Source: Nocardioidaceae bacterium
GTDB taxonomy: Bacteria; Actinomycetota; Actinomycetes; Propionibacteriales; Nocardioidaceae
Assembly (NCBI GenBank): GCA_025934895.1
Contig: JAICWH010000017.1
Span: 1-38,211, forward strand
Length of the DNA stretch: 38,211 nt
Direction: 5' to 3'
The position numbers and the translations under genes were made by a program. A model generated the notes under the pieces. That model was not told the origin of the DNA. It worked only from the letters and a program-made list of their open reading frames with translations, and did no database searches. Shown one piece after another: positions 1,067 to 36,476 of the stretch (the first letter of the stretch is position 1; each line of letters opens with the position of its first letter).

Positions 1067-2050
1067 ATGACCAGCCTGACCTCGCTGGGGATGCCCGCTG
1101 TGCCGCCACCCACGTCCCGGCCGACGTGGAAGGCGGCCTGGGACTCGGCGTTGTACGGCGCCGAGGGGTTCTTCCGACGTGAGTCGCCCGCGGCGCACTT
1201 CCGGACCTCCGTGCACGCCTCCCCCCAATTCGCGCAGGCGCTGGTCCGGATGGCCCGCGGGGCCGGCCTGGACACCGTCGTGGACATCGGCGCCGGCCGC
1301 GGCGAGCTGCTGACCTCAATGCGCCGCCTTGACCCGGCGCTGGCCCTGCTCGGTGTCGAGGTGGCCGCCCGGCCGCCCGGCCTGGACCGCTCGATCGCCT
1401 GGACCACCGGCCTGCCGACGTCTGTCGAGGGCCTGGTGGTGGCGAACGTGTGGCTCGACAACATCCCCTGCCACGTCGTCGAGCTCGACGACGACGCGGT
1501 GCCGCGCGTCGTGCACGTCGATCCCGACACCGGCGAGGAGTCGGCCGGACAGCCGCTCGGCCATCCGTCGGTGCCCTCCTCGCTGCGCAGGTGGACCGAC
1601 CAGTGGTGGCCGCTCGAGGGGGGTGAGCCGGGGGCGCGAGCGGAGGTGGGCACCACCCGGGACGCCGCCTGGGCCGACGTCGTGGGCCGGGTGCAGCGGG
1701 GCATCGCGGTGGCGGTCGACTACGGCCACCTCCGCGAGGACCGTCCTCCGTTCGGCACGCTGGCGTCCTACCGGGGCGGCCGGCTCGTCGACGTGCTCCC
1801 CGACGGGTCGCGCGACGTCACGGCGCACGTCGCCGTCGACTCGGTGGCGGCCCGGGTCGGGGCCGTCGTACGACGGCAGCGCGAGGTCCTGCACGAGCTG
1901 GGCGTCGAGGCTGCGATGCCGGCGACCGTCCTGGCCAGCGAGGACCCGGCCGCCTACCTGGGTCGACTCTCGTCGGCAGCCGAGGCTGCCGAGCTCACCG
2001 CCGCGGGCGGACTCGGCGACTTCTGGTGGGTCGTCACGACCCGGAGCTGA
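1067..2050 (+). CDS. SAM-dependent methyltransferase, MidA/NDUFAF7 (DUF185, Methyltransf_28) family
   Basis: ORF 944-2050 trimmed to ATG 1067 (MTSLTSLGMPAV). Motifs ALYGAEGFFRRESPAAHFRTSVHASPQFAQAL, VVDIGAGRGELL, ANVWLDNIPCHVVEL, AVDYGHLREDRPPFGTLASYRGG and DVTAHVAVDSVAA match the family layout. Confidence 0.8.
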   Translation: MTSLTSLGMPAVPPPTSRPTWKAAWDSALYGAEGFFRRESPAAHFRTSVHASPQFAQALVRMARGAGLDTVVDIGAGRGELLTSMRRLDPALALLGVEVAARPPGLDRSIAWTTGLPTSVEGLVVANVWLDNIPCHVVELDDDAVPRVVHVDPDTGEESAGQPLGHPSVPSSLRRWTDQWWPLEGGEPGARAEVGTTRDAAWADVVGRVQRGIAVAVDYGHLREDRPPFGTLASYRGGRLVDVLPDGSRDVTAHVAVDSVAARVGAVVRRQREVLHELGVEAAMPATVLASEDPAAYLGRLSSAAEAAELTAAGGLGDFWWVVTTRS

Positions 2051-3435
2051 CCGGAGCTGACCGGAGTGGGCCCGCCGGACCGGTCCCGCGCCGCACGAGC
2101 CCGGCGGACGAGGGTGGCCTGCAGGTCCAGCAGAGCCCGGGCCTCCTGCGCGTCACGGTGGCGGGCGCGGACCTTGACCGGACCCGGCGGGCTGTCGACC
2201 AGCAGGTCCGCGAGCCCGAGCAGGCGTTGCAGTGGGCGCTGGTGGATGCGGAGCGACTGGACGCGCGCGTGCGGCACGATGTGCGTCCTGCGGGTCAGGA
2301 CACCGTCGCGGCCGACCAGGAGGTCCTGTCCCACGCCGAACGCGAGGTAACGCCACCGCAGCGGCGCCACCCACCGGGCCCGGTCGGGTGGCGAGCTGAG
2401 GTGGACCAACCGGGGGTCGGGTCCCCCGGCGTCGGTGAGCAGCGTGCGGGCCAGTGCGAGGACCACGGCGTGCGGCGCAACCGGCATCACCGTGGAGGCG
2501 GACGGCTTGCCGTTGTCCCCGTGCTCCATCCGGCCGGCGATGGAGACGTCCAGCCGGCTCCAGCCCAGGCGGCGCCACAGGAACGGCTCGGTGACCACGA
2601 CACCCTGCACCCGCGCCAGGTTGACCGTCTGGGCGTTCAGCTCGAACAGGCCGCGCCGCACCTGCAGCGCGGACGGTGCCCCGGCCCGGGACGAGGCGCT
2701 CACGGTGAAGTCGTAGTAGGCGGACAGCTTGCGGAACTGGGTGAGCGCGAACCCCACCACCACCGGCACCACCCCGGCGATCCCGCTGACCTGGCCGAAG
2801 ACCACGAAGACGACGCCCAGCACCAGGGCCGCCACCACGAACAGGACGGTCTCCGGCGCGAGGAGCAGGCTCACCAGCAGCATGCGCAGGTCCAGCTTCG
2901 CGATCGTCGGCTCGGCCGCTGCTGTGGGCGCAGGCACGGGCGGCGGCCCCGCACCGTCCGAGTCCTGCTCCTCCCGGACGGCGTCGCGCCGGGACAGCAG
3001 CGTCTCGCGCAGGGCCTGGGCGTGCTTGAGCGGGAGGAACGCCAGCGAGCCCTCGTGCGGGCCGCCGCCCGCGACGTCCAACCGCAGCTCCGCGAGACCG
3101 AAGAGCCGTGCGACGAAGGGCTGCACGATGTCGATGCCTTGGATCCGGTCGACCCGGATCCGGCGGGACTGCCGGGAGACGACACCGGTGTCCACCCGCA
3201 GCTCGTCGGACTCGATCCAGTACTTCGTGCGCAGCCAGGACGTGAACCCGTACGCGCCTCCGGCGACCAGGATGACCAGGAACACCCAGGCGAGCGGACC
3301 CAGCCGACCACGCAGCAGGTCGTCCCAGGTGGAGGCGAAGACCGCGACGAGCAGGATCGCACTCCGCACCAGCGGGGTGAGCGGTGAGAGCCGCCGGTAG
3401 GGGTGCCGGACCGGCGGCTCGGGTGCCGAGCTCAC
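1954..3435 (-). CDS. PH domain-containing membrane protein (YdbT/DUF304-like)
   Basis: ORF 1954-3990 trimmed to GTG at 3435 (VSSAPEPPVRHPYRRLSPLTPLVRSAILL), which overlaps the stop of the upstream PH gene as GTGA; repeated bPH modules (WIESDELRVDTGVVSRQSRRIRVDRIQGIDIVQP) and TM segments. Confidence 0.8.
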   Translation of the reverse strand: MSSAPEPPVRHPYRRLSPLTPLVRSAILLVAVFASTWDDLLRGRLGPLAWVFLVILVAGGAYGFTSWLRTKYWIESDELRVDTGVVSRQSRRIRVDRIQGIDIVQPFVARLFGLAELRLDVAGGGPHEGSLAFLPLKHAQALRETLLSRRDAVREEQDSDGAGPPPVPAPTAAAEPTIAKLDLRMLLVSLLLAPETVLFVVAALVLGVVFVVFGQVSGIAGVVPVVVGFALTQFRKLSAYYDFTVSASSRAGAPSALQVRRGLFELNAQTVNLARVQGVVVTEPFLWRRLGWSRLDVSIAGRMEHGDNGKPSASTVMPVAPHAVVLALARTLLTDAGGPDPRLVHLSSPPDRARWVAPLRWRYLAFGVGQDLLVGRDGVLTRRTHIVPHARVQSLRIHQRPLQRLLGLADLLVDSPPGPVKVRARHRDAQEARALLDLQATLVRRARAARDRSGGPTPVSSGQLRVVTTHQKSPSPPAAVSSAASAADESRPR

Positions 3436-3923
3436 AGCCCTGCTGCCTGGGCCTGACCCAGTGATGTCAGCCGGTCCCGCAGCCGGGCCGCCTCGGCCGC
3501 CGGCAGGCCCGGGATCCGAGCGCTGGTGCCGGGGCTCGCGGTGTGCAGGTGGACGCTGGCCACCTTGAACGCCTGCTCCAACGGGCCCGCGTGCACGTCG
3601 ACGTACTGCATGCGTCCGTAGGGCACCACGACCAGCGTGCGGAAGAGGGCACCGTGCTTGATGTAGAGGTCCTCGTCCCGCTCCGCATATCCCCACCAGC
3701 GCGCGTTGCGGCCGATCACCCACCAGCCGAAGGCCGTCAGCACCAGCGTCAGGACCAGGACCGTCGTCCAGGACCACCCGGGCAGGGAGAGCAGGAGCCC
3801 GACCACCACCGTTGCACAGACGACGAGCATCGCGACGCCGACCAGCACCGTACGGCGCAGCCGGGCCAGTGCCGGCGCGACGGGCTGCCAGTCGTTGTCC
3901 GGTGGCGCGAAGAGATCGTCCAC
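3432..3923 (-). CDS. PH domain-containing protein (YdbS-like)
   Basis: 163 aa, two TM segments followed by DEDLYIKHGALFRTLVVVPYGRMQYVDVHAGPLEQAFKVASVHLHTASPGTSARIPGL. Confidence 0.85.
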   Translation of the reverse strand: MDDLFAPPDNDWQPVAPALARLRRTVLVGVAMLVVCATVVVGLLLSLPGWSWTTVLVLTLVLTAFGWWVIGRNARWWGYAERDEDLYIKHGALFRTLVVVPYGRMQYVDVHAGPLEQAFKVASVHLHTASPGTSARIPGLPAAEAARLRDRLTSLGQAQAAGL

Positions 3924-15000: not shown

Positions 15001-15586
15001 GGACGTCGTCGATCCTGACTGCGAGCCGGCGCCGTGCGTGCGCCCGCCGGGCCCAGGGCCGCAGCCGCTCGACCCCACCCTCGTCCCGGACCAGGGCTCC
15101 CACGACGAAGTCGGAGCCCGACGTGCGCAGGGCGGCCACCATCCGCCGGTAGGCGTCGGGAGGCACGGTGTCGTCGGAGTCGGCGAAGGTGACGAGGCGT
15201 CCAGTGCTGCGCACCAGACCGGCATTGCGCGCTGCGCCCAGACCCGCGTTCTCCTGCCGGACGACGACCACGCGCGGGTCCCGCTCGGCGTAGCCGCGGG
15301 CGATGTCGGCGCTGCGGTCGGTCGACCCGTCGTCGACCAGCACGACCTCGAGGTGCTGGTAGGTCTGGGCGAGCAACGAGTCCAGGCACTCGGCCAGGTA
15401 GTCCTCCACCTGGTAGACGGGCACCACGACACTCAGGAGCGGCTGCTCGGCCAGTGGCTCGGCCAGTGGATCGGCCAGTGGATCGGCCAGCGGCTCGGCT
15501 GCGGCCGGCTGACGGGGCCGGGCAGAGGCGCCGCGGGAGGCGATCCGTCTGAGCCGATGGCGGACGCGGTCGGCGGCACTGCCCAT
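12029..15586 (-). CDS. Bifunctional GT2 glycosyltransferase / CDP-glycerol glycerophosphotransferase (TagF-like)
   Basis: ATG 15586 (MGSAADRVRHRLRRIASRG). GT2 LLSVVVPVYQVEDYLAECLDSLLAQTYQHLEVVLVDDGSTD with RLVTFADSDDTVPPDAYRRM; C-terminal VYLQTWHGTPLKRIGTDIP, VLLYAPTWRDD, DVLVTDYSAAMFDFAVTDKPMFFLTPDLE. Confidence 0.9.
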   Translation of the reverse strand: MGSAADRVRHRLRRIASRGASARPRQPAAAEPLADPLADPLAEPLAEQPLLSVVVPVYQVEDYLAECLDSLLAQTYQHLEVVLVDDGSTDRSADIARGYAERDPRVVVVRQENAGLGAARNAGLVRSTGRLVTFADSDDTVPPDAYRRMVAALRTSGSDFVVGALVRDEGGVERLRPWARRAHARRRLAVRIDDVPEMLTNVMACTKVFRREFVDRVGLRFPVGTRYEDQVPITRAYLEARAFDVLPSVVYRWRKRDDRSSISQQKAEMADLLDRVAAQREIAGFLHARASQAVLRSWYVKTLREDFVGYLRVAADAGDDYWEVLQDNLVSIAEQAPEDLDDEVELRSRLAVWLGRHGHRDALRQLVRDEGFEASNFPVAARAGHLVARIPSLEHGGPAIPDPVLRIRTVDLRLTTRLESLDWSTHGLLAVRLLAALSYVDPGRHDVTTSVRLVGPPGTSYPDVATRVDADPAGNLAARRAHEDHSRSTVVAELDLEALVAATDAERFARWELRVDAAFGQMHAEACLESRREHGSAGIVRAVEVGDALVTTSWSDRRGLLVEVHRGYAAVTGVVADDDAFQLDVRAPGLAAVSQVGVGGDAVPTTIVPTGTQDGWTIRLGARTPAGNPISGRVRVAVPTPDRRTLAVVRDLEPAAVCHDQVCLLVSRDGQLTAVPDQPCLLVDDVVATGGWITVTGRTHRVRDGRMLLRGPRAESGAGSVTVRDGTFRVQVPLWHTPWGRARTVLPANLYTLVAESAPGQEEVRVLAGLLYHQATPPPLVEGWSVEVAPDRRLLLRRRRRADPVTASRYGQQQLRSGVYARALARGPEQRVVFECFGGAGVGEAPRAVCDRLLTTGTDLDLVWSVEDLSVAHVEGTRAVVRGTPEWYDAMGSARLLVTNNTLPSFFRKGPDQVYLQTWHGTPLKRIGTDIPHQRMSTEHYLRLLGSETRSWDVLVSPSPYATEIFRRAFGYAGRVLEVGRPSSDVLLGPDAGRLRAEVREQLGVRADQTVLLYAPTWRDDARRGGTWEKVLHLDHEAVTAARPDVTVLVRGHPNTAHRPRVQGRERVVDVTAHPDITRLYLAADVLVTDYSAAMFDFAVTDKPMFFLTPDLEGYRDRVRGLYLDFESVAAGPVVRSTDELLGALEEDDTWASAREQLRATYAPYDDGSVTDRLLQDVLGSTFSR
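15446..15493. repeat. In-frame 12-bp tandem repeat (4 copies, consensus ctcggccagtgg) coding (E/D)PLA repeats
   Basis: ctcggccagtgg / ctcggccagtgg / atcggccagtgg / atcggccagcgg; encodes AEPLADPLADPLAEPLAEQP just before the GT2 domain. Confidence 0.95.
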
Positions 15587-17166: not shown

Positions 17167-19149
17167 ATGACCGCTGCGACCGGCCGGTTGGCCGACCTGC
17201 TCGACCGGGTCGACCGGCTCCTCGTCGTGCGTGGTCCCTCCGTCACCCAGCAGGAGGTCCTCGGCGTCTGCGTCCGTCCGGGGCTCCAGGTGGGGCTGAG
17301 CGACGTGCCCGGCCGGCCCCCGCCGGACGCACCGGACGGCGTGCTGCTCGTGGTGCGCGACCGGATGGAGCTGCGGCGGGTGGTCGGAGCGTGCCAGAGC
17401 CTGCCGGGCAGCCCGCGACTGGGCTGCGTCCTGCTGGACAGCGACCGGCCGCCCCTCACCGCCGGCCGCCCCGGTTGGCCAGCTGTGCTGTCCGTGGTGG
17501 CCGAATCCTCCCCCGTGTGCTTCACCTTCGTCGAGCTCGCGGCACCCCTGCGGATGGGACACCTCACCGCGGACCTGGCCCGACGGTCGACACCGCGGCA
17601 CCTGATGTCGCCGGGCTGGCCGGTGCTGGCCCTCGACCGCGGCTCACCGCAGATGTGGACCCCCGGCGACCCGTTGTCGGTCGTCGGCCGGCCAGAGGAG
17701 ATCCACGACCTCTCCGGCGACTACCCCGCGGACGTGGTGGTGACCGACGGCTCGTGCGGCGCCCGGGACCAGGCGCAGGGCCGGTCCGCACGGGAGCACC
17801 ATGTCCTGGGTTCCCTGCCCCGGGCCCTGCACCTGGCGGCCCCGATGACCTGGTCGGACTACCACGAGCAGGGCGCCGAGCGCAGCGACCGGCAGCTCGC
17901 TGCTGAGCAGGGGCTGGCCCTCGGCGGCGTCGACTCGCAGCTGGTCAACCCCCAGGGCTTCCGACGCCGAGCCGCCGGCCCGGTGCATGCGCTGACCGCC
18001 GTACCGGAGGCCCCGCACCTGTGCCGGGTGGAGTGCGATGACGGCCCGGTCCTGGTGGACACCCGACATGGGCCGGGCGAACGGGACCTGACCCGACTGC
18101 GGACACTGCGGGGGGTGCACGTGGACTGGCAGGGGGCGACCGGGCCGCGCGACTACGCCCGGCTGGTGGTCGCGTTGGCGATGGCCGGCGTGCCGCTGAC
18201 CTGCGACCCGGCCCCGACCTGGGCCCGGGCGCAGCTGCATCCGGACCTGCTGGCGGCAACCGCCGGGAGGACCGACCTCGACGACCCGATGGCGCGCGAG
18301 GTCCGCAGCATCCTCGCCCGGCGCGCGGCGCTGACCCGGCACAGCGCGGATGCCTGGCGCCGTCGGGTCGCCGAGGCGACCGGCGCGGCGGGGCCGGCGG
18401 CTCCCCGGGTCAGCGTCCTGCTGCCCACCCGTCGCCCCGACCTCCTCGGGTTCGCGCTCCGCCAGGTCGCCCGGCAACGCGGCGTGGAGCTCGAGCTGGT
18501 GCTCGCCACCCACGGTCACGAACCCGACCAGCGCCTCCTCGCCGAGGTCCGGGAGAGCGCGTCGCTGCAGGTCACCGCGGTGACCGCGCCGGCCGACGAG
18601 CCGTTCGGGTCGCTGCTGAACCTGGCGGCCGGTGCTGCCACCGGCGACCTGCTGCTGAAGATGGACGACGACGACTGGTACGGCCCGCACTTCGTGGCCG
18701 ACCTGCTGCTGGCCCGCGGATACAGTGGCGCCGACGTCACCGGCACCCCGCCCGAGTTCACCTACGTCGAGGCGCTGGACCTGACGGTGCGTCGCAAGGA
18801 CGCGACCGAGTCGTTCCGCCCGGTGGTGGCCGGCGGGACGATGCTGGTCACGCGGGAGTGCCTCACCGCGGTAGGAGGGTTCCGCCGGATGCGCCGCTAC
18901 GTCGACGCGGGTCTCCTGCAGGGCGTCCTCGCCGCCGGCGGGTCGGTCTACCGGACCCACGGCCACAGCTACCTCCTGCGCCGCGGAGGCTCCGGGCACA
19001 CCTGGGACCCGGGGCTCGGCTACTTCGTCAGCCGCTCACGGACGGCGGAGCAGTGGCGGGGCTTCCGGCCCAGTGTGCTGCTCGAGGCCGACGACGCCGA
19101 CCGGCCGGCGGCGAGCGCCCAGCCCACGCGCGAGAGGTCCGTCCGGTGA
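17167..19149 (+). CDS. GT2 family glycosyltransferase with ~400-aa uncharacterised N-terminal region
   Basis: C-terminal PRVSVLLPTRRPDLLGFALRQVARQRGVELELVLATHG...GDLLLKMDDDDWYGPHFVADLL; 10 bp after the GH16 stop. Confidence 0.85.
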   Translation: MTAATGRLADLLDRVDRLLVVRGPSVTQQEVLGVCVRPGLQVGLSDVPGRPPPDAPDGVLLVVRDRMELRRVVGACQSLPGSPRLGCVLLDSDRPPLTAGRPGWPAVLSVVAESSPVCFTFVELAAPLRMGHLTADLARRSTPRHLMSPGWPVLALDRGSPQMWTPGDPLSVVGRPEEIHDLSGDYPADVVVTDGSCGARDQAQGRSAREHHVLGSLPRALHLAAPMTWSDYHEQGAERSDRQLAAEQGLALGGVDSQLVNPQGFRRRAAGPVHALTAVPEAPHLCRVECDDGPVLVDTRHGPGERDLTRLRTLRGVHVDWQGATGPRDYARLVVALAMAGVPLTCDPAPTWARAQLHPDLLAATAGRTDLDDPMAREVRSILARRAALTRHSADAWRRRVAEATGAAGPAAPRVSVLLPTRRPDLLGFALRQVARQRGVELELVLATHGHEPDQRLLAEVRESASLQVTAVTAPADEPFGSLLNLAAGAATGDLLLKMDDDDWYGPHFVADLLLARGYSGADVTGTPPEFTYVEALDLTVRRKDATESFRPVVAGGTMLVTRECLTAVGGFRRMRRYVDAGLLQGVLAAGGSVYRTHGHSYLLRRGGSGHTWDPGLGYFVSRSRTAEQWRGFRPSVLLEADDADRPAASAQPTRERSVR

Positions 19150-20744
19150 CTGCCGGCGACGGTCGGCCGCTGCCGGGTCAGCCCGCGGTCCCGGGCAACG
19201 ACTGGCCCTCCCTGCGGCCTCCCGCGCTCGGCGGCTGGACCCCCACGCGGACGGTCAGCGTGGTCGTCCCGGCCCACGACGCATCGCGGACCCTGCCCTA
19301 CGCGCTCGCAGCACTGGCCCAGCAGACCTATCCCGCCGAGCTGACCGAGGTGGTCGTCGTCGACGACGGCAGCGACCCACCGCTCACGCTGCCCGCCGAG
19401 CGTCCCGAGCACACCAGGATGGTCACGACCTCGGCGTCCTGGGGACGTGCGCACGCGTGTCACGTGGGCGCCTGCGCGGCGCAGGGCGAGGTGCTGCACT
19501 GGCTCGACGCGGACCTGCTCGCGCACCCCGACGAGCTCGAGGCGCAGATGCGGTGGCACCATCTCGTGGACTACGCCGTCGTGCTGGGCACCAAGACCTT
19601 CGTGGATGTCGCCGACGGCCTGCCCGACCTCGAGGAGTTGGCCCGGATGCTCCGCGAGGGCCGGGCCACCGACCTGTTCCCGGGTCGCTGGACCTCACCC
19701 CACACCTGGGTCGAGGAGCAGATCGAACACTCCCAGGGCCTCACTGCGAACCCCACCATGAGCTACCTGGTGCACGTCGGCGCGAGCGCGTCCGTGGGTC
19801 GCGACCTCTACCTGGACACCGGCGGGATGGACCCGGAGCTCAAGCTGGGCGAGGACGTGGAGCTGGGCTACCGGCTCGGCCAGCAGGGTGCGCTGTTCGT
19901 CCCGGACCGCGAGGCCCTCTCCTGGCACCTCGGCCGGTCGACGCTGATGGCCGACCAGGACCGGGTCAACGCCTATAACCGCCCCTTCGTCACCGACCGG
20001 GTGCCCGACCTGCGGCACTGGCGCACGAAGGGCCGCTCCTACACGGTTCCCTGGGTCGAGGTGGTGGTCGACGCGACCGAGCAGACCTACACCGACGTCC
20101 GGCACTCCGTCATCGCGGTCCTCACCGGTGCCGTCACCGATGTCCGGGTCGTGGTGCTCGGGCCGTGGTCGCGGCTCACCGACGGACGACGGTCCCCGCT
20201 GGCCGACCCCGACCGGGACCTGCGGATGGTCCGCGCCGAGCTCGAGGGCGACCCGCGGGTCCGGTTCGTCGAGGAGCTGCCCCGCACCGCCTTTCCCGCG
20301 ACGTTCCGGCTGCTGCTGCCGACCGGGTGGGCACCGGGCCCGGACACCGTGCGCAGGCTGGCCCGGGAGATGACCCGCCGGGACCGGGGGCTGGTCTCGA
20401 TGGTCCTCCCGGACGGCCGGACAGCCCGGCTGGAGCGCACCTCCGCCTTCAACCGGGCTGCCCGGGTTGCGGGCGCTCGGCCGGACCGTGACATGGAGGC
20501 CGGGCTCGATGACCTGGTCGACCAGGTGTCGCGGACATGGTGGTTCGACGGCCCCGAGGAGGGGTTCACCCATGTCTGCGCGGTCCCGGCCACCGAGCCC
20601 GGGACCCGCGCTGCCGGCGGAGGGCGACCGGGACGGACGCAGACCGGGTCGGCGCGACGCGACGACCTGGCGGGCGACGGCACACAACATCACCTACCGA
20701 GCGCCCGCGACCTGCTCAGCCGGGCGATCCGCCGCCGGAGATGA
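19146..20744 (+). CDS. GT2 family glycosyltransferase
   Basis: GTG 19146 overlaps the previous stop (GTGA). [66 protein letters not shown]. Confidence 0.88.
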
Positions 20745-21907
20745 CCCCGCTCACCCGGCTCACCGTCGGGGTCGGGGCGGGCACCGCGGGGAGCTCGACC
20801 CACGACCTGGTCCTCGACATCGCCCCGCACCATCCCTCCACCCACGGGATGCTGCGGCTGCGCCTGACGCTCGACGGGGAGCGCATCGTGGCCTGCGAGC
20901 CGGTCGTGGGCTACCTGCACCGGGGCGTCGAGAAGCTGTTCGAGGTTCGTGACTACCGGCAGATCGTCGTGCTGGCCAACCGCCACGACTGGCTCTCGGC
21001 GTTCTCCTCCGAGCTCGGCGTCGTCCTCGCCGTCGAGCGGATGCTGGGCCTGGAGGTGCCGCGTCGGGCGACCTGGGCCCGGACCCTCCTCGCCGAGCTG
21101 AACCGGGTGCTCAGCCACCTGATGTTCCTGGGCGCCTTCCCGGTGCAGCCGGCCGCCGGCCGACCCGCGGTGCGCACATCCCCGGAGCGCGAGCAGGTCC
21201 AGGCGGTGATGGAGGAGCTCACCGGCGGTCGGATGCACTACATGTTCAACCGGGTGGGCGGCCTCAAGGAGGACCTTCCCGCTGGCTGGCTGCTCCGGGT
21301 CGCGGACACCCTCACGTCGGTGCGGCAGGCACTGCCGCGGATCGAGGACGGCCTCCTGGGCAGCCCAAGCTTCGAGGACCGCACGCGCGGCATCGGGGTG
21401 CTGCGAACGACGCTCGTCGACGCGTACGGCGTCAGCGGCCCCGTGGCCCGGGCGTCCGGTGCCGACCTCGACCTCCGGCGTGACGAGCCCTACCTCGCCT
21501 ACGGCGACCTGCTCCGCGACGGGGTCCTCGAGGTGCCGGTGCGCCACGAGGGTGACTGCTACGCCAGGGTCCGGATGCTGCTGGACCAGGTGGCGGTCTC
21601 CCTGGCGCTGTCCGAGGCGTGTGTGGAGCGGCTGGCGAGGCTGGACCGCGGTCCCGTGAACGTCCGGCTCCCGAAGGTGCTGCGACCACCCGAAGGGGCG
21701 ACGTACGCCTGGACGGAGAACCCGCTCGGCATCAACGGCTACTACCTGGTCTCCCGCGGCGCGGGGACGCCATGGCGGATGAAGCTCCGCACGGCGTCCT
21801 TCAACAACGTGGCCGTGCTGCCCGAGCTGCTCGAGGGCTGCCGGCTGGCCGACCTGGTCACCATCTTGGGCTCGCTGTTCTTCGTGGTGGGCGACATCGA
21901 CAAATGA
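20741..21907 (+). CDS. NADH-quinone oxidoreductase subunit D (NuoD/49 kDa)-like protein, orphan (NuoD2-type)
   Basis: ATG 20741 overlaps the upstream GT2 stop (ATGA). [134 protein letters not shown]-terminal [13 protein letters not shown]. Confidence 0.92.
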
Positions 21908-21989: not shown

Positions 21990-23099
21990 ATGCCGCCCGA
22001 CGCCGACCCCGATGCGCGACAGGTGCTGCTCGTCGTCGTGACCGGGTCGGGGCGCAGTGGCACGAGCACGGTGGCCGGCACCCTGAAGATGCTCGGCAGC
22101 TACGTCCCGCAGCCCGAGATCCCGCCCAACGAGGCGAACCCCCGCGGCTACTTCGAGCCCAAGTGGACCGTCGCCTTCCACAAGAAGGTGCTCGCCGAGG
22201 CCGGAGTGCGCACCCTGGACGGCCGGCCCGTCGCACGGGAGCTGATGGGGTCCGTGACGGGTCGTGAGGACCTGCTCGAGGAGTTGCGGGACTGGTTCGC
22301 GACCCAGCTGCAGGCCCACCAGGTGGTGGTGAAGGACCCCCGCATCGTCTGGCTGCGCGACATGTGGTCCACAGTGGCCGCCGACCTCGGCGCCGGGACC
22401 CGGTGGCTGACCATGCTGCGGCATCCCGCCGAGGTGGTCGGCTCACGGGACCGGCACTACCTCGCCGGCGCCGACGACGGGCACCGGCTGACCCGGGAGA
22501 CCGCCAACCTCGCCGGCTGGGTGAACGTCGGGCTGACCAACGAGCGCGCGTCCCGGGGCGACCGCCGGGTCTTCGTGCACTACACCGACATGATCAGCGA
22601 CTGGCGCTCGGCCATGGGCGTGGTGGCCGACCGGCTCGGTCTGACCTACGACGTCGACCTGGCCGACCAGGGGCACCACCCGGTCGACGACTTCATCGAC
22701 GTCAGCCTGCGCCGGGTGCAGGTGACCCTCGACGACCTCGACGTGCCGGTCAACCTGCGCGAGATCGCGGAGACGGTGTGGAGCGGGCTCGCCGCACTCG
22801 CCCGGGACCCGGACGACGCGGCGGCGATGCACAGCCTCGACTCGGCCCGTGAGGACTACGACCAGCTCTTCCGACACTCCGCGGCCCTCGTGCAGGACGC
22901 CACCGACTTCGCCATCCTCGACACCAGGCGCCGGGTGCGGCGCAACGTCACCCGAAGCCTGACCCAGGAGCTGCAGGCCCGGCAGGGCGCGCAGGATGGG
23001 ACGCCTCCTGCGATGGGGAGCGGGCCGGCGGGGACGGGTGCGCTGCTGCGCCGCGCGGCGGCGAAGGCCCGACGCGTGCTGAGCGAGCGTCGCGGATGA
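21990..23099 (+). CDS. Sulfotransferase family protein
   Basis: N-terminal PAPS-loop-like VTGSGRSGTSTVAGTLKMLG; later VVVKDPRIVWLRDMW and TRWLTMLRHPAEVVGS. Confidence 0.85.
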   Translation: MPPDADPDARQVLLVVVTGSGRSGTSTVAGTLKMLGSYVPQPEIPPNEANPRGYFEPKWTVAFHKKVLAEAGVRTLDGRPVARELMGSVTGREDLLEELRDWFATQLQAHQVVVKDPRIVWLRDMWSTVAADLGAGTRWLTMLRHPAEVVGSRDRHYLAGADDGHRLTRETANLAGWVNVGLTNERASRGDRRVFVHYTDMISDWRSAMGVVADRLGLTYDVDLADQGHHPVDDFIDVSLRRVQVTLDDLDVPVNLREIAETVWSGLAALARDPDDAAAMHSLDSAREDYDQLFRHSAALVQDATDFAILDTRRRVRRNVTRSLTQELQARQGAQDGTPPAMGSGPAGTGALLRRAAAKARRVLSERRG

Positions 23100-25762
23100 C
23101 CAGAGCCGGGCTCGTGTCGGCTGTCCGCCGAAGGCTCGCCGTCGGGACCCGGCTCCGCGCCGCAGAGTCCCAGGTCCTCGCGACCCGCTACGCCCGGTGG
23201 CGCACCAGGCCGGTGCGGCCTCGCACCGTGCTCTACGAGGCGTTCTCCGGCAACGGCATGCTGGACAACCCCGAGGCGATCTTCCGGCACCTGCTGACCC
23301 AGCCGGACATGGCCGACCTGACCCATGTGTGGGTGCTCGACGACCTCGAGAGACACCCGGAGGTGCAGGCCGAGTTCGCGGAGCACCCGCGCGTGCGGTT
23401 CGTCCGGATCCGCTCGGCGGGCTACTTCAAGGCGCTGGCCACCTCGACGTACCTCGTGAACAACGCGACCTTCCCGCAGGAGTTCGCCAAGCGGCCCCAA
23501 CAGGTCTACCTCAACACCTGGCACGGGGTCCCCCTCAAGCACATGGGCTTCGACATGCCCGAGGGCGGTCCGCTGTCCCGCAACGTGATCCGCAACTTCC
23601 TGAACGCCGACTACCTGCTCTCGGCCTGCGACTTCATGACCCGCACCATGTACCGCGACGCCTACCGGCTGCAGGGCATCTTCCGTGGGGCTGTCGTGGA
23701 GGAGGGCCAGCCACGGACCGACCGACAGGTCCAGGCGGTCCGGGACCCGGAGCAGGCCCTGACCCTGCTCGCCCAGCGCGGGGTGGACGTGCGCGGGCGC
23801 AAGGTGGTGCTGTACGCCCCCACGTGGCGGGGCGACACCTTCGCCGAGCCGCACATCAACGCCGCCCAGCTGGTGTCCACGGTCCGCGAGCTGCAGAAGG
23901 GCCTCGGCCCCGACCACGTCGTGCTGCTCAAGGTCCACCAGGTCGTCTACGAGGTGGCCCAGGTCCGGTTCGAGCAGCACGGCTTCCTGGTCCCGAACAG
24001 CATCCCGTCCAACGTCGTCCTCGCCGCCGCCGACCTGCTGGTCACCGACTACTCGAGCATCTTCTTCGACTTCGCCTCGACCGGGCGGCCGATCGTGCAC
24101 TTCGTGCCCGACCTGTCGGCCTACACCCGCGGACGCGGGCTCTACCTCGACCAGGCGGACCTGCCCGGCCCGCTGTGCACCACGGTCGAGGAGACCCTGC
24201 AGGCGGTCCGCGACGGGCTGGCAGCCGGCGCGTCGGAGCGGGTCAGGGCGTTCGCGAGGAGGTTCGCACCCAAGGACGACGGGGAGGTGTGCGCCCGCGT
24301 CGTCGACCTGGTGTTCCGGGGCAGGGACGAGGCCGGCTTCGACGTGCACCGCGACTTCGGCACCGAGAAGGAGACGCTGCTGGTCTACCTCGGCAGCATG
24401 AAGTCCCAGGGGATCACCACCTCGGCCCTGAACATGCTGCGCAACCTCGACTTCGACCGCTACGACGTCACCGCGTTCTACCCCTGGACCCGCGGCCGGG
24501 ACCGCTACAAGAACATCCTGCTGGTCGACGAGCGGGTCCGGGTGGTCCCGCGCGCGACCCTGTTCATCGGGTCGCCGCGCCGAGTCCGCGAGGAGACAAC
24601 GAAGCTGATGGTCACCGGGCTCCCGGACCGCCTCGACGACCGGCACCGGCAGTTCTGGAGCGACGAGTGGCAGCGGATGCTCGGGCACTCCCGCTTCGAC
24701 CACCTGATCGACTTCAGCGGCTACGGCTGCTACACGCCGTTCCTCTACAGCGTGGCCCAGGCGCAGCACAAGTCGATCTGGCTGCACAACGACATGGATG
24801 CGGACATGCGGCGCGAGACCATCGGGGAGCGGCACCTCGAGGACCGGCTGCGGGCCGTCTTCTCGACCTACCGCTACTTCGACCACCTCGTCTCGGTCTC
24901 CCCGTCGCTGGACCGGGTCAACCGCGAGAAGCTGGCCGGCTACGCGCGCCCGGACCAGTTCACCTACGCCGCCAACACCATCGACGGGGACCGGGTGCTC
25001 AGGATGGCCGGCTTCTCCCCGGAGGAGTCCCCCGACGACGCCCGCGCGTCGGGCAACCTGCGTCGCACCGTGTCCACCGCGCCGGCGGAGCGGTCCGCGT
25101 CGTTCGACACCGAGAACCTCGCGGCCGCGGTGAGCGCGGTGCTGCGGCACTACCCACCGATCGCGGTGATCCGCGAGATCCGCAGCCGGATGCTGTTCGT
25201 GCGCGCCCAGGGCGACGACGACGTCGCCGTGTTCGTGACCGTGGGCAGGCTGTCGCCGGAGAAGAACCACGCGCGGCTGGTCAGGGCGTTCGCGGAGGTC
25301 CACGAGGAGCAGCCGGCCACCAGGCTTGTCATCATCGGCGGCGGCAAGCTCGAGCTCGAGCTCGACAACCTGGTGCGCAGCCTGGGGCTCGAGTCGGCGG
25401 TGACGCTGACCCGTCAGGTGGACAACCCCTACGCGATCATGGCGGAGTCGCACTGCTTCGTGCTCTCCAGCGACTACGAGGGCCAGCCGATGGTGATCCT
25501 CGAGGCCCGGGTGCTGGGGCTGCCGGTGGTCACCACGGCGTTCTCCTCGGTGGGCGACTCGGTGCCTCCGGGGGCCGGTCTGGTCGTGCCGCAGACCGTG
25601 AAGGGGGTGGCGCAGGGGATGCGCCAGTTCCTGGCCGGCAAGGTGCCCTCGGCCACCCTCGACGCCCGCGCCTACAACCGCGCTGCGATGGAGCAGTTCG
25701 ACCGTGCCGTGCACGGTCTCTCACCAGAGCTCGAGCAGCCGGTCGACGGTCTGGGCGGCTGA
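23096..25762 (+). CDS. CDP-glycerol glycerophosphotransferase (TagF-like) domain fused to C-terminal GT4 glycosyltransferase
   Basis: ATGA overlap with sulfotransferase stop. VYLNTWHGVPLKHMGFDMP, VVLYAPTWRGD, LLVTDYSSIFFDFASTGRPIVHF; C-terminal FVTVGRLSPEKNHARLVRAFAEV...YEGQPMVILEARVLGLPVVTTAFSSVGD. Confidence 0.9.
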   Translation: MTRAGLVSAVRRRLAVGTRLRAAESQVLATRYARWRTRPVRPRTVLYEAFSGNGMLDNPEAIFRHLLTQPDMADLTHVWVLDDLERHPEVQAEFAEHPRVRFVRIRSAGYFKALATSTYLVNNATFPQEFAKRPQQVYLNTWHGVPLKHMGFDMPEGGPLSRNVIRNFLNADYLLSACDFMTRTMYRDAYRLQGIFRGAVVEEGQPRTDRQVQAVRDPEQALTLLAQRGVDVRGRKVVLYAPTWRGDTFAEPHINAAQLVSTVRELQKGLGPDHVVLLKVHQVVYEVAQVRFEQHGFLVPNSIPSNVVLAAADLLVTDYSSIFFDFASTGRPIVHFVPDLSAYTRGRGLYLDQADLPGPLCTTVEETLQAVRDGLAAGASERVRAFARRFAPKDDGEVCARVVDLVFRGRDEAGFDVHRDFGTEKETLLVYLGSMKSQGITTSALNMLRNLDFDRYDVTAFYPWTRGRDRYKNILLVDERVRVVPRATLFIGSPRRVREETTKLMVTGLPDRLDDRHRQFWSDEWQRMLGHSRFDHLIDFSGYGCYTPFLYSVAQAQHKSIWLHNDMDADMRRETIGERHLEDRLRAVFSTYRYFDHLVSVSPSLDRVNREKLAGYARPDQFTYAANTIDGDRVLRMAGFSPEESPDDARASGNLRRTVSTAPAERSASFDTENLAAAVSAVLRHYPPIAVIREIRSRMLFVRAQGDDDVAVFVTVGRLSPEKNHARLVRAFAEVHEEQPATRLVIIGGGKLELELDNLVRSLGLESAVTLTRQVDNPYAIMAESHCFVLSSDYEGQPMVILEARVLGLPVVTTAFSSVGDSVPPGAGLVVPQTVKGVAQGMRQFLAGKVPSATLDARAYNRAAMEQFDRAVHGLSPELEQPVDGLGG

Positions 25763-29366: not shown

Positions 29367-29900
29367 CTATCGCTCGTCCTGGCTGACCCGACACGCACGC
29401 TCCAGCAGCAGGGACCCCACCACCAGCAGCACCCCGGCGACCCCGGCCAGGACAGCGTGCACCATCCGCTCGTGCGCGAGCGCACCCTCGGTCAGGCCGA
29501 GCCAGCTGAGCGCGTAGCCGAAGTACCCGCCCGAGAACAGCGCGCCGGCGATGGCGCAGGCCTTGGCCAGCACCAGCCGGTTGACGGCGTGGTGCGGCTG
29601 CAACCGCTGATGGCGCCGGTGCACGACCCGGTACGTCGACCAGGCGACCGACCCCACCACGACAGCCACGAACAGCAGCGCCAGCACCGGTAGCCAGCTG
29701 ACCGTCGGTGCCGACCCGCTCGTAGCGACGCTGACCGGCCGGACCAGCCAGCCCAGCACCAGGCCGGCGAGGAAGAAGCCGACGACGGTCCCGGCGGACG
29801 TCGTGCCGAGCCGTCCGCGGGGGCCGTCGGGCGGCGGCTGGGGGGACCCGTCCGGACCGGGGCCGTCCGGACCGGCGCCGGGCAGCGGGTCACGGCTCAA
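29367..29900 (-). CDS. DUF3180 domain-containing membrane protein
   Basis: 177 aa, TM segments, TSAGTVVGFFLAGLVLGWLVRP...AVNRLVLAKACAIAGALFSGGYFGYAL; directly downstream of folK as usual in Actinobacteria. Confidence 0.85.
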   Translation of the reverse strand: MSRDPLPGAGPDGPGPDGSPQPPPDGPRGRLGTTSAGTVVGFFLAGLVLGWLVRPVSVATSGSAPTVSWLPVLALLFVAVVVGSVAWSTYRVVHRRHQRLQPHHAVNRLVLAKACAIAGALFSGGYFGYALSWLGLTEGALAHERMVHAVLAGVAGVLLVVGSLLLERACRVSQDER

Positions 29901-29923
29901 CGACGGCTCCTGGTGGGAGCCAT

Positions 29924-30490
29924 CTAGAAGGTCAGGCTGAGGTCGTCGCGCACCGTGACCACCTGGTCCCCGGCCTTGACGAGCAGGTCGGCCACCGGTC
30001 CGACGTCAGGGATCTCGGCGTCCGGGTCTACGTCGTGCCAGGGAGCCAGGACGAAGGCGCGCTCGTGGGCCTTGGGGTGCGGCAGGACGAGGTGCTCGTC
30101 GTCGGCGCGGCGGTCCCCCACCACGATCAGGTCCACGTCGAGGGTCCGGGGTGCGTTCGGGTAGCTGGTCCGCTCGCGGCCGTAGGCGTCCTCGATCGCC
30201 AGGGCCCGCTCCAGCAGGGTGCGGGCCGTGAGGGTCGTGTCCAGCAGCACCACGGCGTTCAGGAAGTCCTGGGAGTCCGCAGGGGCGTCGACCGGCTCGG
30301 TCTCGTAGACCGGGGACACGGCGGTCAGCCACACCTCCGGGGTGTCGGCGAGTGCGTCCACGGCGCCCTGCATGTGGTTGAGACGGTCGCCCAGGTTGGA
30401 CCCGATCGACAGCACGCAGCGACGGACCGGGTGCATCTCGCCGGTCAGCGTGTCGGCGTCCACGATGTTGGGGTTCGGGGTCTCAGTCAT
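29924..30490 (-). CDS. folK: 2-amino-4-hydroxy-6-hydroxymethyldihydropteridine diphosphokinase
   Basis: LSIGSNLGDRLNHMQGAVDAL, SPVYETEPV, PNAPRTLDVDLIVVGDRR, LPHPKAHERAFVLAPW. Confidence 0.95.
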   Translation of the reverse strand: MTETPNPNIVDADTLTGEMHPVRRCVLSIGSNLGDRLNHMQGAVDALADTPEVWLTAVSPVYETEPVDAPADSQDFLNAVVLLDTTLTARTLLERALAIEDAYGRERTSYPNAPRTLDVDLIVVGDRRADDEHLVLPHPKAHERAFVLAPWHDVDPDAEIPDVGPVADLLVKAGDQVVTVRDDLSLTF

Positions 30491-30869
30491 GGTCGTCTCC
30501 GGTGCGGGTGCGGATGATCGTCAGGGTCACGTCGGTGAAGGTCGCCTCGATGGGGGCCCCGGGCTTGTGCAGCGTCACCTCGGCCACGCCTACCCGTGGG
30601 TGCGTGAGGCAGAGGTCGGCGATGCGTTGGGCCAGCGTCTCGATCAGGTCGACAGGGTCCGACTCGATCGCCTTCTTCACGCTGAGCACGAGCGTTCCGT
30701 AATCGACGGTGTCCCGCAAGTCGTCGCTGCGGCCGGCCTCCCGGGTGTCGAACAGCAGGACCACGTCGGCGACGAACACCTGCCCGTCACGGCGCTCGGC
30801 CTCGAGGACCCCGTGGTGCCCGAACGCCTGGATGCCGGTCACGGCCAGCCGGTCGAGCCGGCCGGTCAT
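30483..30869 (-). CDS. folB: Dihydroneopterin aldolase
   Basis: MTGRLDRLAVTGIQAFGHHGVLEAERRDGQVF...DTVDYGTLV...LIETLAQRIADLCL...VTLHKPGAPIEATFTDV; overlaps folK by 8 bp. Confidence 0.93.
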   Translation of the reverse strand: MTGRLDRLAVTGIQAFGHHGVLEAERRDGQVFVADVVLLFDTREAGRSDDLRDTVDYGTLVLSVKKAIESDPVDLIETLAQRIADLCLTHPRVGVAEVTLHKPGAPIEATFTDVTLTIIRTRTGDDHD

Positions 30870-30895
30870 CGGACCACCCGGCACCGAGTCACCCG

Positions 30896-30959
30896 CACCG
30901 GTCACCCACACCGGGTCACTCACTCGGGTCACCCACACCGGTCACCCACACCGGGTCAC
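30896..30959. repeat. Tandem/direct repeat upstream of folB (perfect 24-bp copies caccggtcacccacaccgggtcac; 13-14 bp subunits ggtcacccacacc)
   Basis: Perfect 24-mers at 30896-30919 and 30936-30959 with a related unit (gggtcactcactc) between. Confidence 0.95.
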
Positions 30960-31378
30960 CGATCGCCATCGGCGGCCGCGAGCACCGGGGATGCGTGGTG
31001 CAGCCACAGCCGCCAGCCGTCGGGGGTGCGCAGGAACACGTTGGTCGCCACCGCCTTGCCGCCCCCGAACTCCTCCGGGCCGGTCCGCTCGTCCCCGGTC
31101 AGGACGTTCTCGGTGCAGGTCACCGACGCGGCCTCCCCGTGCACCGCGACCTCCACGTCGGTCAGGAAGAACTGGATGTAGGACGTGTGGGCCATCACCA
31201 CGGCCCAGGACCGGCTGACCGGACCGGGGCCGCGGACCGGGAGTGCCCCTGGGTGCACGCAGACGACGCCGGGGTCGTCGACCCACAGGTCCAGCATGCT
31301 GTCCAGGTCGGCGTTCTCGATCGCCTCGTAGAACGCCGTGTTCACGGCCTCGACCTGTCGGTGCACCGCATCAGGCAC
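30956..31378 (-). CDS. NTF2/SnoaL-like nuclear transport factor 2 family protein
   Basis: GTG 31378 overlapping the folP stop; AVNTAFYEAIENADLDSMLDLWVDDPGVVCVHPGALPVRG...RSWAVVM...DGWRLWLHHASPV. Confidence 0.88.
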   Translation of the reverse strand: MPDAVHRQVEAVNTAFYEAIENADLDSMLDLWVDDPGVVCVHPGALPVRGPGPVSRSWAVVMAHTSYIQFFLTDVEVAVHGEAASVTCTENVLTGDERTGPEEFGGGKAVATNVFLRTPDGWRLWLHHASPVLAAADGDR

Positions 31379-32252
31379 GGCCGGCCTCGACCTGCCGGGG
31401 TGCCGCTGCCCAGCGCATGGCGACCCGGACCGCGTCCGCGGTGGGCCGCACGGAGTGGGTGCGGATGCACCAGGCCCCGGACACGGCGGCCAGCGCCGAG
31501 GTCGCAGTCGTGGCATCTTCGCGCTGGTCCGGCGGTCGCAGCGCTCCCGACTCGTCGGCCAGCAGCGCCCCCAGGAAGCGCTTGCGGCTGGTGGCGATGA
31601 GCACCGGGTGCCCGAGGTCGTGCAGCCGCTCCATCCGGCCGAGCACGTCCCAGTTCTGGTCCGCGGTCTTGGAGAAGCCGATGCCGGGGTCCACGACGAT
31701 CCGGTGCGGGTCGACGCCGGCCGCCAGCGCCGCCTCCACCTGGTGCCCCAGCTCGCTGAGCACGTCGGTGACCACGTCGCCGTACGCCGTGTGCTGCTGC
31801 ATCTCGTGCGAGTGCGCCCGCCAGTGCATCACGACGTACGGCGTCGCCAGCCGGGCCACCTCGGGAAGCATGTCCGGGTCGGCACGGCCTCCGGAGACGT
31901 CGTTGACCAGGACCGCGCCTGCGTGCACGGCCGCCCGGGCGACGGTGGCCCGCATGGTGTCCACCGAGACCAGCACCCCGTCGGCGACCAGCCCGGTCAC
32001 CACCGGGAGGATGCGTTCGGTCTCCTCCTGCGGACTGGTCCGGGCAGCGCCCGGGCGGGTGGACTCGCCGCCCACGTCGACCAGGTCGGCGCCCTCGGCG
32101 ACGAGACGCCGACCGTGCTCGAGGGCCGCGCGGGGCTCCAGGTAGCGACCTCCGTCGGAGAACGAGTCCGGGGTCACGTTCAGCACGCCCATCACCAGCG
32201 CGCGCCCCGGCCGCGGGAGACCGTCGACGTAACGGGGTGGGCGGCTGAACAT
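31371..32252 (-). CDS. folP: Dihydropteroate synthase
   Basis: LVMGVLNVTPDSFSDGGRYL, VDVGGESTRPGA, VLVNDVSGGRAD, IVVDPGIGFSKTADQNW, LIATSRKRFLG. Confidence 0.95.
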   Translation of the reverse strand: MFSRPPRYVDGLPRPGRALVMGVLNVTPDSFSDGGRYLEPRAALEHGRRLVAEGADLVDVGGESTRPGAARTSPQEETERILPVVTGLVADGVLVSVDTMRATVARAAVHAGAVLVNDVSGGRADPDMLPEVARLATPYVVMHWRAHSHEMQQHTAYGDVVTDVLSELGHQVEAALAAGVDPHRIVVDPGIGFSKTADQNWDVLGRMERLHDLGHPVLIATSRKRFLGALLADESGALRPPDQREDATTATSALAAVSGAWCIRTHSVRPTADAVRVAMRWAAAPRQVEAGRA

Positions 32253-32431
32253 GCAGCGACCCTACCGCCCGGGTGGCAGCGTCCGGGTGCCCGCGGGTCG
32301 GGGCGCTAGCATCGCCCGGGACGGACGACCACCCGCCCCCGAAGGCAGCACACGAGCACCCGTGCGACCACGCGTGGGACCACCCCGCGCGACAACCCCG
32401 AGCGACAACCCGAGCCAACACGGAGACACAG

Positions 32432-32962
32432 ATGAGCGAAGAGGCCACCACGGCCGCCGAGCTGACCCTTGAGCTGTCCGCCAGCTATGCGCACCGGGTC
32501 GGTAAGGACCTCCACGTCGTGCTCCGGCTCGCCGAGGCCGCCGGGATCGGTCTCGAGCCGATCCCCGGGCAGCCGGTGGAGCTCGAGCTCCGCGCCGGCA
32601 AGGTGGTGGTGCGCGTCCCGGTCACCTCCGTCGGCGAGGTGATCGACGCACGAGTGCCGGCCGACCGCCTGCGACCCGGGCTGTGGCGGCTCGCGCTGGT
32701 GGCGAAGGACGGTGAGGTGCGCGACGTACAGGGCCGGCTGCTCAACGGCCGCAAGCAGCCCGTCGCCTTGCTGCCCGGACCGGCGCCGACCACCCAGATG
32801 CCTCCGCCCCAGCCCACCGCGCGGTCCTCGTCGCCGGTCAGGGACCGTGCCTACCGCACCGCTGCCGTGGTCGCGAACAAGGGCCTGGGTCTGCTGCCCG
32901 AGGAACGGGCGTCCCGGGCCCGGGCGGCCCTCAAGAAGGTGGGTCACCGGGTCCTGGGCTGA
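32432..32962 (+). CDS. Hypothetical beta-rich protein
   Basis: ATG 32432 with upstream ggag; MSEEATTAAELTLELSASYAHRVGKDLHVVLRLAE...RLRPGLWRLALVAKDGEVRDVQGRLLNGRKQPVALLPGP; no recognised family. Confidence 0.65.
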   Translation: MSEEATTAAELTLELSASYAHRVGKDLHVVLRLAEAAGIGLEPIPGQPVELELRAGKVVVRVPVTSVGEVIDARVPADRLRPGLWRLALVAKDGEVRDVQGRLLNGRKQPVALLPGPAPTTQMPPPQPTARSSSPVRDRAYRTAAVVANKGLGLLPEERASRARAALKKVGHRVLG

Positions 32963-32970
32963 GCGATTCC

Positions 32971-33741
32971 TCAGCCGACGGGGGCGACGGTGCTGTCGAG
33001 CAGGCCGGCCTGGTCGACCAACCGGCGGATCTCCGCGCGGGCCCGTGCGTCGGGAGCCGTGCGCAGGGAGCGCACCGAGTCCCAGATCGGTGCCCGCACC
33101 AGGGCCCACGGCTTGACGGCCCGGGTCCGCTCCAGGGTCTCGGTGGGCACCACCTGCGGGTCCGGGACCACGAACTCAGCCACCAGCCGGTCGTAGGCGT
33201 CGGCAAGGGCGGTCGAGGTCGGATCGGGCGTCATCAGCACGGCGGTCCCGGTCGGCCGGGTGTCGACCTCGAGGCAGATCAGGTCCGGACGCAGCTCGCG
33301 CAACGAGGCGACCATCTTGTAGACGTCGCCGGCCCAGTGGCCGTGCGCGGCTGCGCCCTGGCGGGTCCGGCCGGCCTCCTCGACGCCGCGGGGCAGCATG
33401 TCGTCGATCACGATGACGCTGCCGGCATGGCAGTAGCGCTCCACGTTGATGACGTCGCGCAGGGCGTACTCCGACAGGTGCATCCCGTCGATGAAGGCCA
33501 GGTCCACCACCGGCTCGTCGAAGTGGGCCAGGGGATGGCGACGCGCGAAGAACTCGTCGCTGGTGGTGCGGACCAGGTGCAGGTCGCAGAGGATCTCCCT
33601 CTCGATCTCGTAGAACGGGTCCACCGCGACGGTCCGGGCCCTGGACAGGGCCAGGCTGGCGCCCTTGCGGACGCCGATCTCCAGGTAGGTGCGGGGCTGC
33701 ACCAGCTGGTGGAGGTGCTTGAGCAGTTCGTGGCGGAACAC
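32971..33741 (-). CDS. Class I SAM-dependent methyltransferase (Methyltransf_24-like)
   Basis: RTYLEIGVRKGASLALSRARTVAVDPFYEIE...VDLAFIDGMHLSEYALRDVINVERYCHAGSVIVIDDMLP. Confidence 0.8.
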   Translation of the reverse strand: MFRHELLKHLHQLVQPRTYLEIGVRKGASLALSRARTVAVDPFYEIEREILCDLHLVRTTSDEFFARRHPLAHFDEPVVDLAFIDGMHLSEYALRDVINVERYCHAGSVIVIDDMLPRGVEEAGRTRQGAAAHGHWAGDVYKMVASLRELRPDLICLEVDTRPTGTAVLMTPDPTSTALADAYDRLVAEFVVPDPQVVPTETLERTRAVKPWALVRAPIWDSVRSLRTAPDARARAEIRRLVDQAGLLDSTVAPVG

Positions 33742-33809
33742 GGCGGGCCTCTCGGGCTTCGGGACATGCGCAGGCGGACTGGGACAGTATCAACCGCGAA
33801 GCCGCAGGC

Positions 33810-34424
33810 TCAGCGGGTCCCGGACATGATCAGGCTCATGGCCTCGGCCCGGGTGGCGGCCCGGTGCATCGTGCCCCGCACCGCCGAGGTGACCGTCTTC
33901 GACCCCGGCTTGCGCACGCCCCGCATCGTCATGCACAGGTGCTCCGCCTCGATCACCACGATCGCCCCACTGGCTTGGAGGATGTCCATCATCGAGTCCG
34001 CGATCTGGCTGGTCAGCCGCTCCTGCACCTGGGGTCGCTTGGCGTAGACGTCGACCAGCCGGGCGAGCTTGGAGAGCCCGGTGATCCGGCCGCTCGTGTT
34101 GGGGATGTAGCCGACGTGCGCGACGCCCGTGAACGGCACGAGGTGGTGCTCGCACATCGACCACAGCTCGATGTCGCGGACCAGGATCATCTCCTCGTGA
34201 CCCGCGTCGAACGACGTGGTCAGCACGTCCTCTGCCGAGAGCCGCATCCCTCCGAGGAGCTCGGCGTAGGCGCGCGCGACCCGCGCCGGGGTCTGCCGGA
34301 GTCCCTCCCGGTCGGGGTCCTCCCCCACCGCGATCAGCAGCTCCCGGACCGCCGCCTCGGCACGCGCCTGGTCGAACGGGGGGACGGCTACGTGCGGCTC
34401 CTGGGTGATCGGGTCGATCGCCAT
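33810..34424 (-). CDS. folE: GTP cyclohydrolase I
   Basis: [94 protein letters not shown]. Confidence 0.97.
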
Positions 34425-34433
34425 GTCAGCAGG

Positions 34434-36476
<2,043 letters not shown>

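Follow-up and report, generated by a model that had tools for sequence, protein, structure and literature searches.

An unlinked nuoD2 gene of a Nocardioidaceae bacterium and a reduced, putatively soluble set of its Nuo2 partners

We analyzed a stretch of DNA of 38,211 nucleotides from a Nocardioidaceae bacterium (the window), in which a gene of the NuoD family lies among genes for glycan synthesis (Table 1). A sequence-only reading of the window had described an orphan NuoD homologue with a GT2 gene, a sulfotransferase and a TagF + GT4 fusion as neighbours. We confirmed the open reading frame and the neighbours as first described, and recognized no further nuo gene in the window. The ATGA overlap was also present, with the ATG of the nuoD gene (20741–20743) sharing bases with the TGA (20742–20744) of the GT2 gene. 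TagF-like (PF04464) domains were seen in three large proteins of the window (12029–15427, 23096–25762 and 25721–28672), and in two of these the domain is joined to a glycosyltransferase domain; the three proteins adjoin GH16 and other GT genes and appear to form a teichoic-acid-like glycan cluster inserted around the gene in this genus.

Table 1. Positions of nuoD2, its quinone-site features and its neighbours in the window.
Feature	Position	Strand	Basis or remark
Two bacterial PH-domain genes	1954..3923	-	Ancestral left flank of nuoD2 in the class; not part of the enzyme
GT2 gene	19149-20744	same as nuoD2	Upstream of nuoD2; neighbour survey
nuoD2 (388 aa; D subunit of Nuo2, unlinked from partner genes)	20741..21907	+	PF00346; operon position of orthologues; tree
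Codon of His35, aligned with Nqo4 His38 (T. thermophilus; NDUFS2 His59), kept	20843..20845	+	Alignments
Codon of Trp84, aligned with quinone-binding Nqo4 Tyr87 (NDUFS2 Tyr108)	20990..20992	+	Alignments
Eroded quinone-site loop, residues 129-152, with Gln136 aligned to Nqo4 Asp139	21125..21196	+	Mapping from PDB-chain alignment
Sulfotransferase-like gene	21990-23099	same as nuoD2	PF13469, just under cut-off
TagF + GT4 fusion	23096-25762	same as nuoD2	
DUF3180-folK-folB-folP-folE-ftsH block	29367..36431	-	Right flank of nuoD2 in the ancestral arrangement; outside the enzyme; gene names inferred from synteny and the start of the sequences, Pfam run on some genes only

The product of the gene matched PF00346 over its full length (1.2e-59), and the chains of the 49-kDa type in solved complex I structures of the PDB aligned with residues 19–388 (best 2.7e-69). 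NuoD models aligned over nearly the whole length, with scores below their equivalog cut-offs. The N-terminus agrees with the conserved start of the orthologues, which makes the start codon plausible, and the C-terminus is complete; the protein, earlier called a near full-length homologue, is thus a homologue of full length. It shares 37% identity with the canonical NuoD of the same genome. An AlphaFold model of low confidence (mean pLDDT 56) served as a fold check only, and a Foldseek search with it still found 49-kDa chains. Like the canonical subunits Nqo4 and NDUFS2, the window protein retains the quinone-site His, and it differs from them in a Trp at the place of Tyr87 and in an eroded quinone loop. 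The large subunits of group 4 [NiFe]-hydrogenases are distant homologues: their model matched weakly and in part only, at 19.7 bits where the cut-off is 600, and unlike them the 388 residues contain no CxxC, of which two are needed for the Cys ligands that hold Ni-Fe. More distant NuoD-like proteins, probably of the hydrogenase-4/Ech type, were seen in two relatives (L206 of G077 and L207 of G019). The window gene is almost certainly nuoD2, encoding the D subunit of the second complex I (Nuo2) of Actinomycetota, an enzyme of the 11-subunit type that lacks the N module, with NuoB2, NuoC2 and NuoI2 as its partners.

Orthologues with 65–73% identity were found in Nocardioidaceae, Kribbella, Aeromicrobium, Streptomyces, Actinomadura, Nonomuraea, Terrabacter and others. 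Across 80 loci, the recurrent neighbours of nuoD2 were ftsH-folE-folP-folB-folK-DUF3180 on one side and PH-domain genes, DUF2520 and panC on the other, with no nuo genes among the recurrent clusters. GT-type genes flank nuoD2 in several congeners, most orthologues have no glycan neighbours, and the fol/PH/panC site also harbours orthologues in genomes that carry no glycan genes at that place. Judged by this synteny, the glycan cluster was inserted around nuoD2 at the level of the genus, and the proposal that a glycan operon had captured a stray NuoD is not supported; we rejected it. NuoD2 and the GT2 gene may today share a transcript, but no finding ties the role of NuoD2 to the envelope. A scan for sigma-70 promoters found none and is uninformative at this G+C content.

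At each of the 12 loci read outside the window's class, in 12 genomes of the same phylum, the orthologue was encoded between nuoC2 and nuoH2, inside an operon nuoA2-B2-C2-D2-H2-I2-J2-K2-L2-M2-N2. The nuo2 operon of the relatives reads A2-B2-C2-H2-I2-J2-K2-L2-M2-N2, with the D slot between C2 and H2 empty, and no E, F or G gene was present at any nuo2 locus read. In the tree, the sampled unlinked NuoD2 proteins all fell into a single clade (100/100), which is placed among the in-operon proteins. Taken together with the 12 in-operon orthologues, the simplest reading of the tree is a single relocation of nuoD2 out of the operon, in an ancestor of the window's class.

The sequence-only reading had pointed to a ‘NuoD2’ of some actinobacteria, and this lead proved correct, as two papers place Streptomyces nuoD2 apart from a nuo2 operon (nuoA2, B2, H2-N2; PMC8388888, PMC3765725). 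The Streptomyces protein belongs to the same clade as the window protein, and both sets have a separate nuoD2 and lack the NADH module; unlike the Streptomyces Nuo2, the window genome has lost the membrane arm, with only B2-C2-I2 left. The passages found in these papers give no function for nuoD2 and mention neither the Trp nor a reduced form. A look-up of the locus tag SCO3392 gave no match in the literature. Complex I with NuoA-D and H-N but without E, F and G, as in Nuo2, is also found in Desulfitobacterium hafniense (PMC11238625) and as the cyanobacterial NDH-1, and ferredoxin has been proposed as its electron donor in both. These systems hold NuoD in a complex with a membrane arm, whereas the window set has none; the aligned cyanobacterial NdhH retains the Tyr where the window NuoD2 has Trp.

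A search of the window's genome for a nuo operon and NuoD paralogues found the canonical operon, with its own NuoD, on two contigs (C166 and C10). On contig C103, three consecutive genes encode a second NuoB (PF01058), a NuoC (PF00329) and a NuoI-like protein; korAB, yajQ and an ABC transporter lie around them. The NuoI-like protein carries two [4Fe-4S] motifs, and yajQ follows its gene directly. A third match to the NuoB family lies on C142 among genes that, judged from their protein starts, are hydrogenase-like. The solute-binding ABC transporter directly upstream of nuoB2 is complete in this genome (L118 3964–7659), and the same transporter precedes nuoB2 in the congener G002 (L167 206–1962), where the contig begins with its permease and ATPase genes. 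In an assembly of 99.9% completeness and 247 contigs, we found one NuoH and a single set of NuoL/M/N, and no second copy of either. The partners NuoB2, NuoC2 and NuoI2 are therefore present, and NuoH2 and NuoL2/M2/N2 of the membrane arm are missing; as far as the assembly tells, the Nuo2 set of this genome is a reduced derivative and not a complete Nuo2. The sequence-only reading had noted that NuoD normally works only beside NuoB and NuoC; the partners are encoded on another contig, and the rule holds in trans.

NuoD2 and NuoB2 were inherited together. Among relatives at least 90% complete, 42 had both proteins, 24 had neither and there was no mismatch (completeness of the order-level genomes was set at 97 in this count, the tables giving 95–100); three mismatches appeared when incomplete genomes were added. 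In a class-wide sample, all 72 NuoD2-positive genomes had a second or NuoB2-type NuoB, and nine NuoD2-negative genomes also showed two NuoB matches. By this co-inheritance, NuoD2 still belongs to Nuo2. In G171 (L209, L229; listed as 100% complete), NuoB, NuoD and NuoH occur only in their Nuo2 forms and no canonical complex I was found, so that Nuo2 may serve as the only complex I of a cell. Both nuoD2 and nuoB2 carry a frameshift in G004 (L168, L173; one contig), through sequencing errors or early decay, and in G065 (L190) nuoD2 is split by a stop and a frame change and NuoB2 is absent, both apparently being lost.

Many NuoD2-positive genomes lack a second NuoH, although absence of H2 from a draft assembly can be an assembly gap. 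The reduced loci read contain B2-C2-I2 and no A2, H2 or J2-N2, and most of them have korAB and yajQ close by; two one-contig genomes (G049 and G076) also have this layout. The window's genus contains both full sets (G001, G003, G004, G005) and reduced ones (G000, G002), and a single NuoD2 clade for the genus was not rejected (p 0.36). An intermediate was seen in G100, where nuoH2 is broken and the NuoD2 loop and NuoI2 helix are intact. The tree gave three changes to loss of the membrane arm, two of them forced by well-supported branches, and taxonomy suggests more; the number of independent losses is uncertain because reduced NuoD2 proteins have long branches and cluster on the tree. Between reduced genomes, NuoD2 dN/dS (NG86) was 0.16–0.43, values that are rough given G+C bias and saturation and that point to purifying selection. 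KorAB is adjacent in many reduced loci, not in all, and since most NuoD2-negative genomes have it too, we rejected it as a strict co-occurrence partner. A new partner shared by the reduced loci was likewise rejected, as the genes between I2 and yajQ vary by family, and GT87-like neighbours in one family (f2) gave weak matches only. In most genomes read, yajQ adjoins nuo2 or its remnant (L118, L151-L170, L209-L228).

In the current view of complex I, the module that reduces quinone is fixed to a membrane arm that pumps protons. In the reduced genomes, the features of Nuo2 that face the membrane have eroded. The NuoD2 loop GAITPxFYAFRER, which in the PDB-chain alignment covers the positions of Thr156 and Asp160 of the bovine protein, both located at the quinone site in the literature, was intact in 26/26 genomes with NuoH2 and in 0/29 without it; with just two or three independent pairs on the tree, we claim no significance for this loss. 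The motif HP[AS]xHG was present in 26/26 NuoD2 proteins with NuoH2 and in 18/29 without. The N-terminal membrane helix of NuoI2, scored by a pattern, was found in all ten full loci and in G100 (in the full loci G053 and G054 the pattern missed the helix, which was seen by eye), and was absent in 27 of 28 reduced loci, the exception being G008. The NuoB2 motif facing NuoH, NWGRxYSLWVFNFG, was intact in the full sets, in G008 and in G090, which is an uncertain reduced case as its contig ends just after C2, and was eroded in the remaining reduced loci. The ligands of the clusters were kept: all eight cluster Cys of NuoI2 were present in every locus read, full or reduced, and those of NuoB2 in each case where the region was recovered; for G133 and G004 the extracted stretch did not include the CC pair.

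The quinone pocket of NuoD2 differs from that of canonical NuoD even where the membrane arm is present. Nqo4 His38 (bovine NDUFS2 His59) is a quinone-site residue in the literature and is kept in the window protein. Nqo4 Tyr87 (NDUFS2 Tyr108) binds the quinone headgroup in complex I, and in Yarrowia, variants of this Tyr hardly reduce Q9 and retain activity with short quinones. This Tyr is absent from the window NuoD2, which has Trp84 instead. Trp occupied its place in all 68 NuoD2 proteins examined (56 unlinked and 12 in-operon), and Tyr in all 13 canonical actinobacterial NuoD proteins compared. Therefore, even the full Nuo2 would handle quinone differently or use another acceptor.

Several explanations of the reduced set were weighed. 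A membrane arm that exists in the strain and dropped out of the assembly would fit a draft of 247 contigs, and H2 and B2 do lie on different contigs in G031, G011, G020 and G037; we regard this as very improbable in view of the 99.9% completeness with no second NuoH or NuoL/M/N, the contiguity of NuoI2 and yajQ on C103, the recurrence of this layout in G002 and, on single contigs, in genomes such as G049 and G076, and the loop of the window NuoD2, whose erosion was seen only where H2 is missing. That the set is a functionless, decaying remnant is quite improbable: the broken nuoH2 of G100, the split nuoD2 of G065 without NuoB2 and the long NuoD2 branches of reduced lineages fit decay, but the eight Cys of NuoI2 and the cluster Cys of NuoB2 are kept across many families, NuoD2 and NuoB2 are retained or lost together, and dN/dS is well below 1.

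The B2-C2-D2-I2 proteins could also replace the NADH-oxidizing arm as a second peripheral arm docked on the canonical NuoA/H/J-N; the result would be a pump that is driven by ferredoxin and shares its membrane subunits. The reduced genomes do have canonical nuoH, and interchange of complex I subunits is known in cyanobacteria, as discussed in PMC3765725. We consider docking unlikely because the surfaces that would make the contact erode in genomes that still have canonical NuoH, the NuoD2 loop being intact in none of 29, the NuoI2 helix gone in 27 of 28 reduced loci and the NuoB2 motif eroded. Recruitment of NuoD2 to envelope glycan assembly, as the sequence-only reading proposed, is hardly credible. 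The overlap with GT2, the sulfotransferase and TagF genes downstream on the same strand and the GT-type neighbours of several congeners speak for it; most orthologues, however, lack glycan neighbours, the presence of NuoD2 follows that of NuoB2, and the Fe-S partners retain their ligands.

We think it probable, from these patterns of gene content and residues, that the set is a soluble B2-C2-D2-I2 remnant of Nuo2, with D2 acting in trans, that would pass electrons from ferredoxin to an acceptor other than quinone delivered through NuoH2. NuoD2 left the nuo2 operon, on the simplest reading once and in an ancestor of the class, and would work in trans with NuoB2, NuoC2 and NuoI2; A2, H2 and J2-N2 are gone from the window genome and many relatives, and the four proteins that remain are inferred to assemble into one complex. 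The donor would be a low-potential ferredoxin, for which the neighbouring 2-oxoacid:ferredoxin oxidoreductase KorAB is a plausible reductant; from there electrons would run along the two [4Fe-4S] clusters in NuoI2 to the N2-type cluster in NuoB2 and exit close to the Trp84/His35 pocket of NuoD2. KorAB as the source is countered by its presence in most NuoD2-negative genomes and its inconstant adjacency. Taken by itself, a soluble ferredoxin-linked Fe-S module is a proposition that we hold evenly balanced. Slightly short of that, and tentative, is the wider proposal of a membrane-free, quinone-independent B-C-D-I module in many actinobacterial families that would carry electrons from ferredoxin to a cytosolic acceptor at the Trp-lined pocket. 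Against the soluble remnant as the main reading, the window NuoD2 retains the quinone-site His, and 18 of 29 reduced NuoD2 proteins the motif HP[AS]xHG. The Streptomyces Nuo2 with its separate nuoD2 is already known, and no report of a membrane-free NuoBCDI module or a reduced Nuo2 was found in the open-access literature.

A module that outlasts its membrane arm provides a natural dissection of complex I, in which the residues of electron transfer can be told apart from those on the membrane side, and the clade-wide change from Tyr to Trp at its most discussed quinone ligand provides a second test case. A Trp at the place of Tyr108 has been noted in complex I genes of S. mobaraensis, which produces piericidin (PMC7567858); because Trp is universal in the NuoD2 proteins examined, it may simply be that of its NuoD2, in which case it would be a signature of the paralogue and no evidence of self-resistance. 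Many orphan genes of the window's class annotated as ‘NADH-quinone oxidoreductase subunit D’ could be reannotated.
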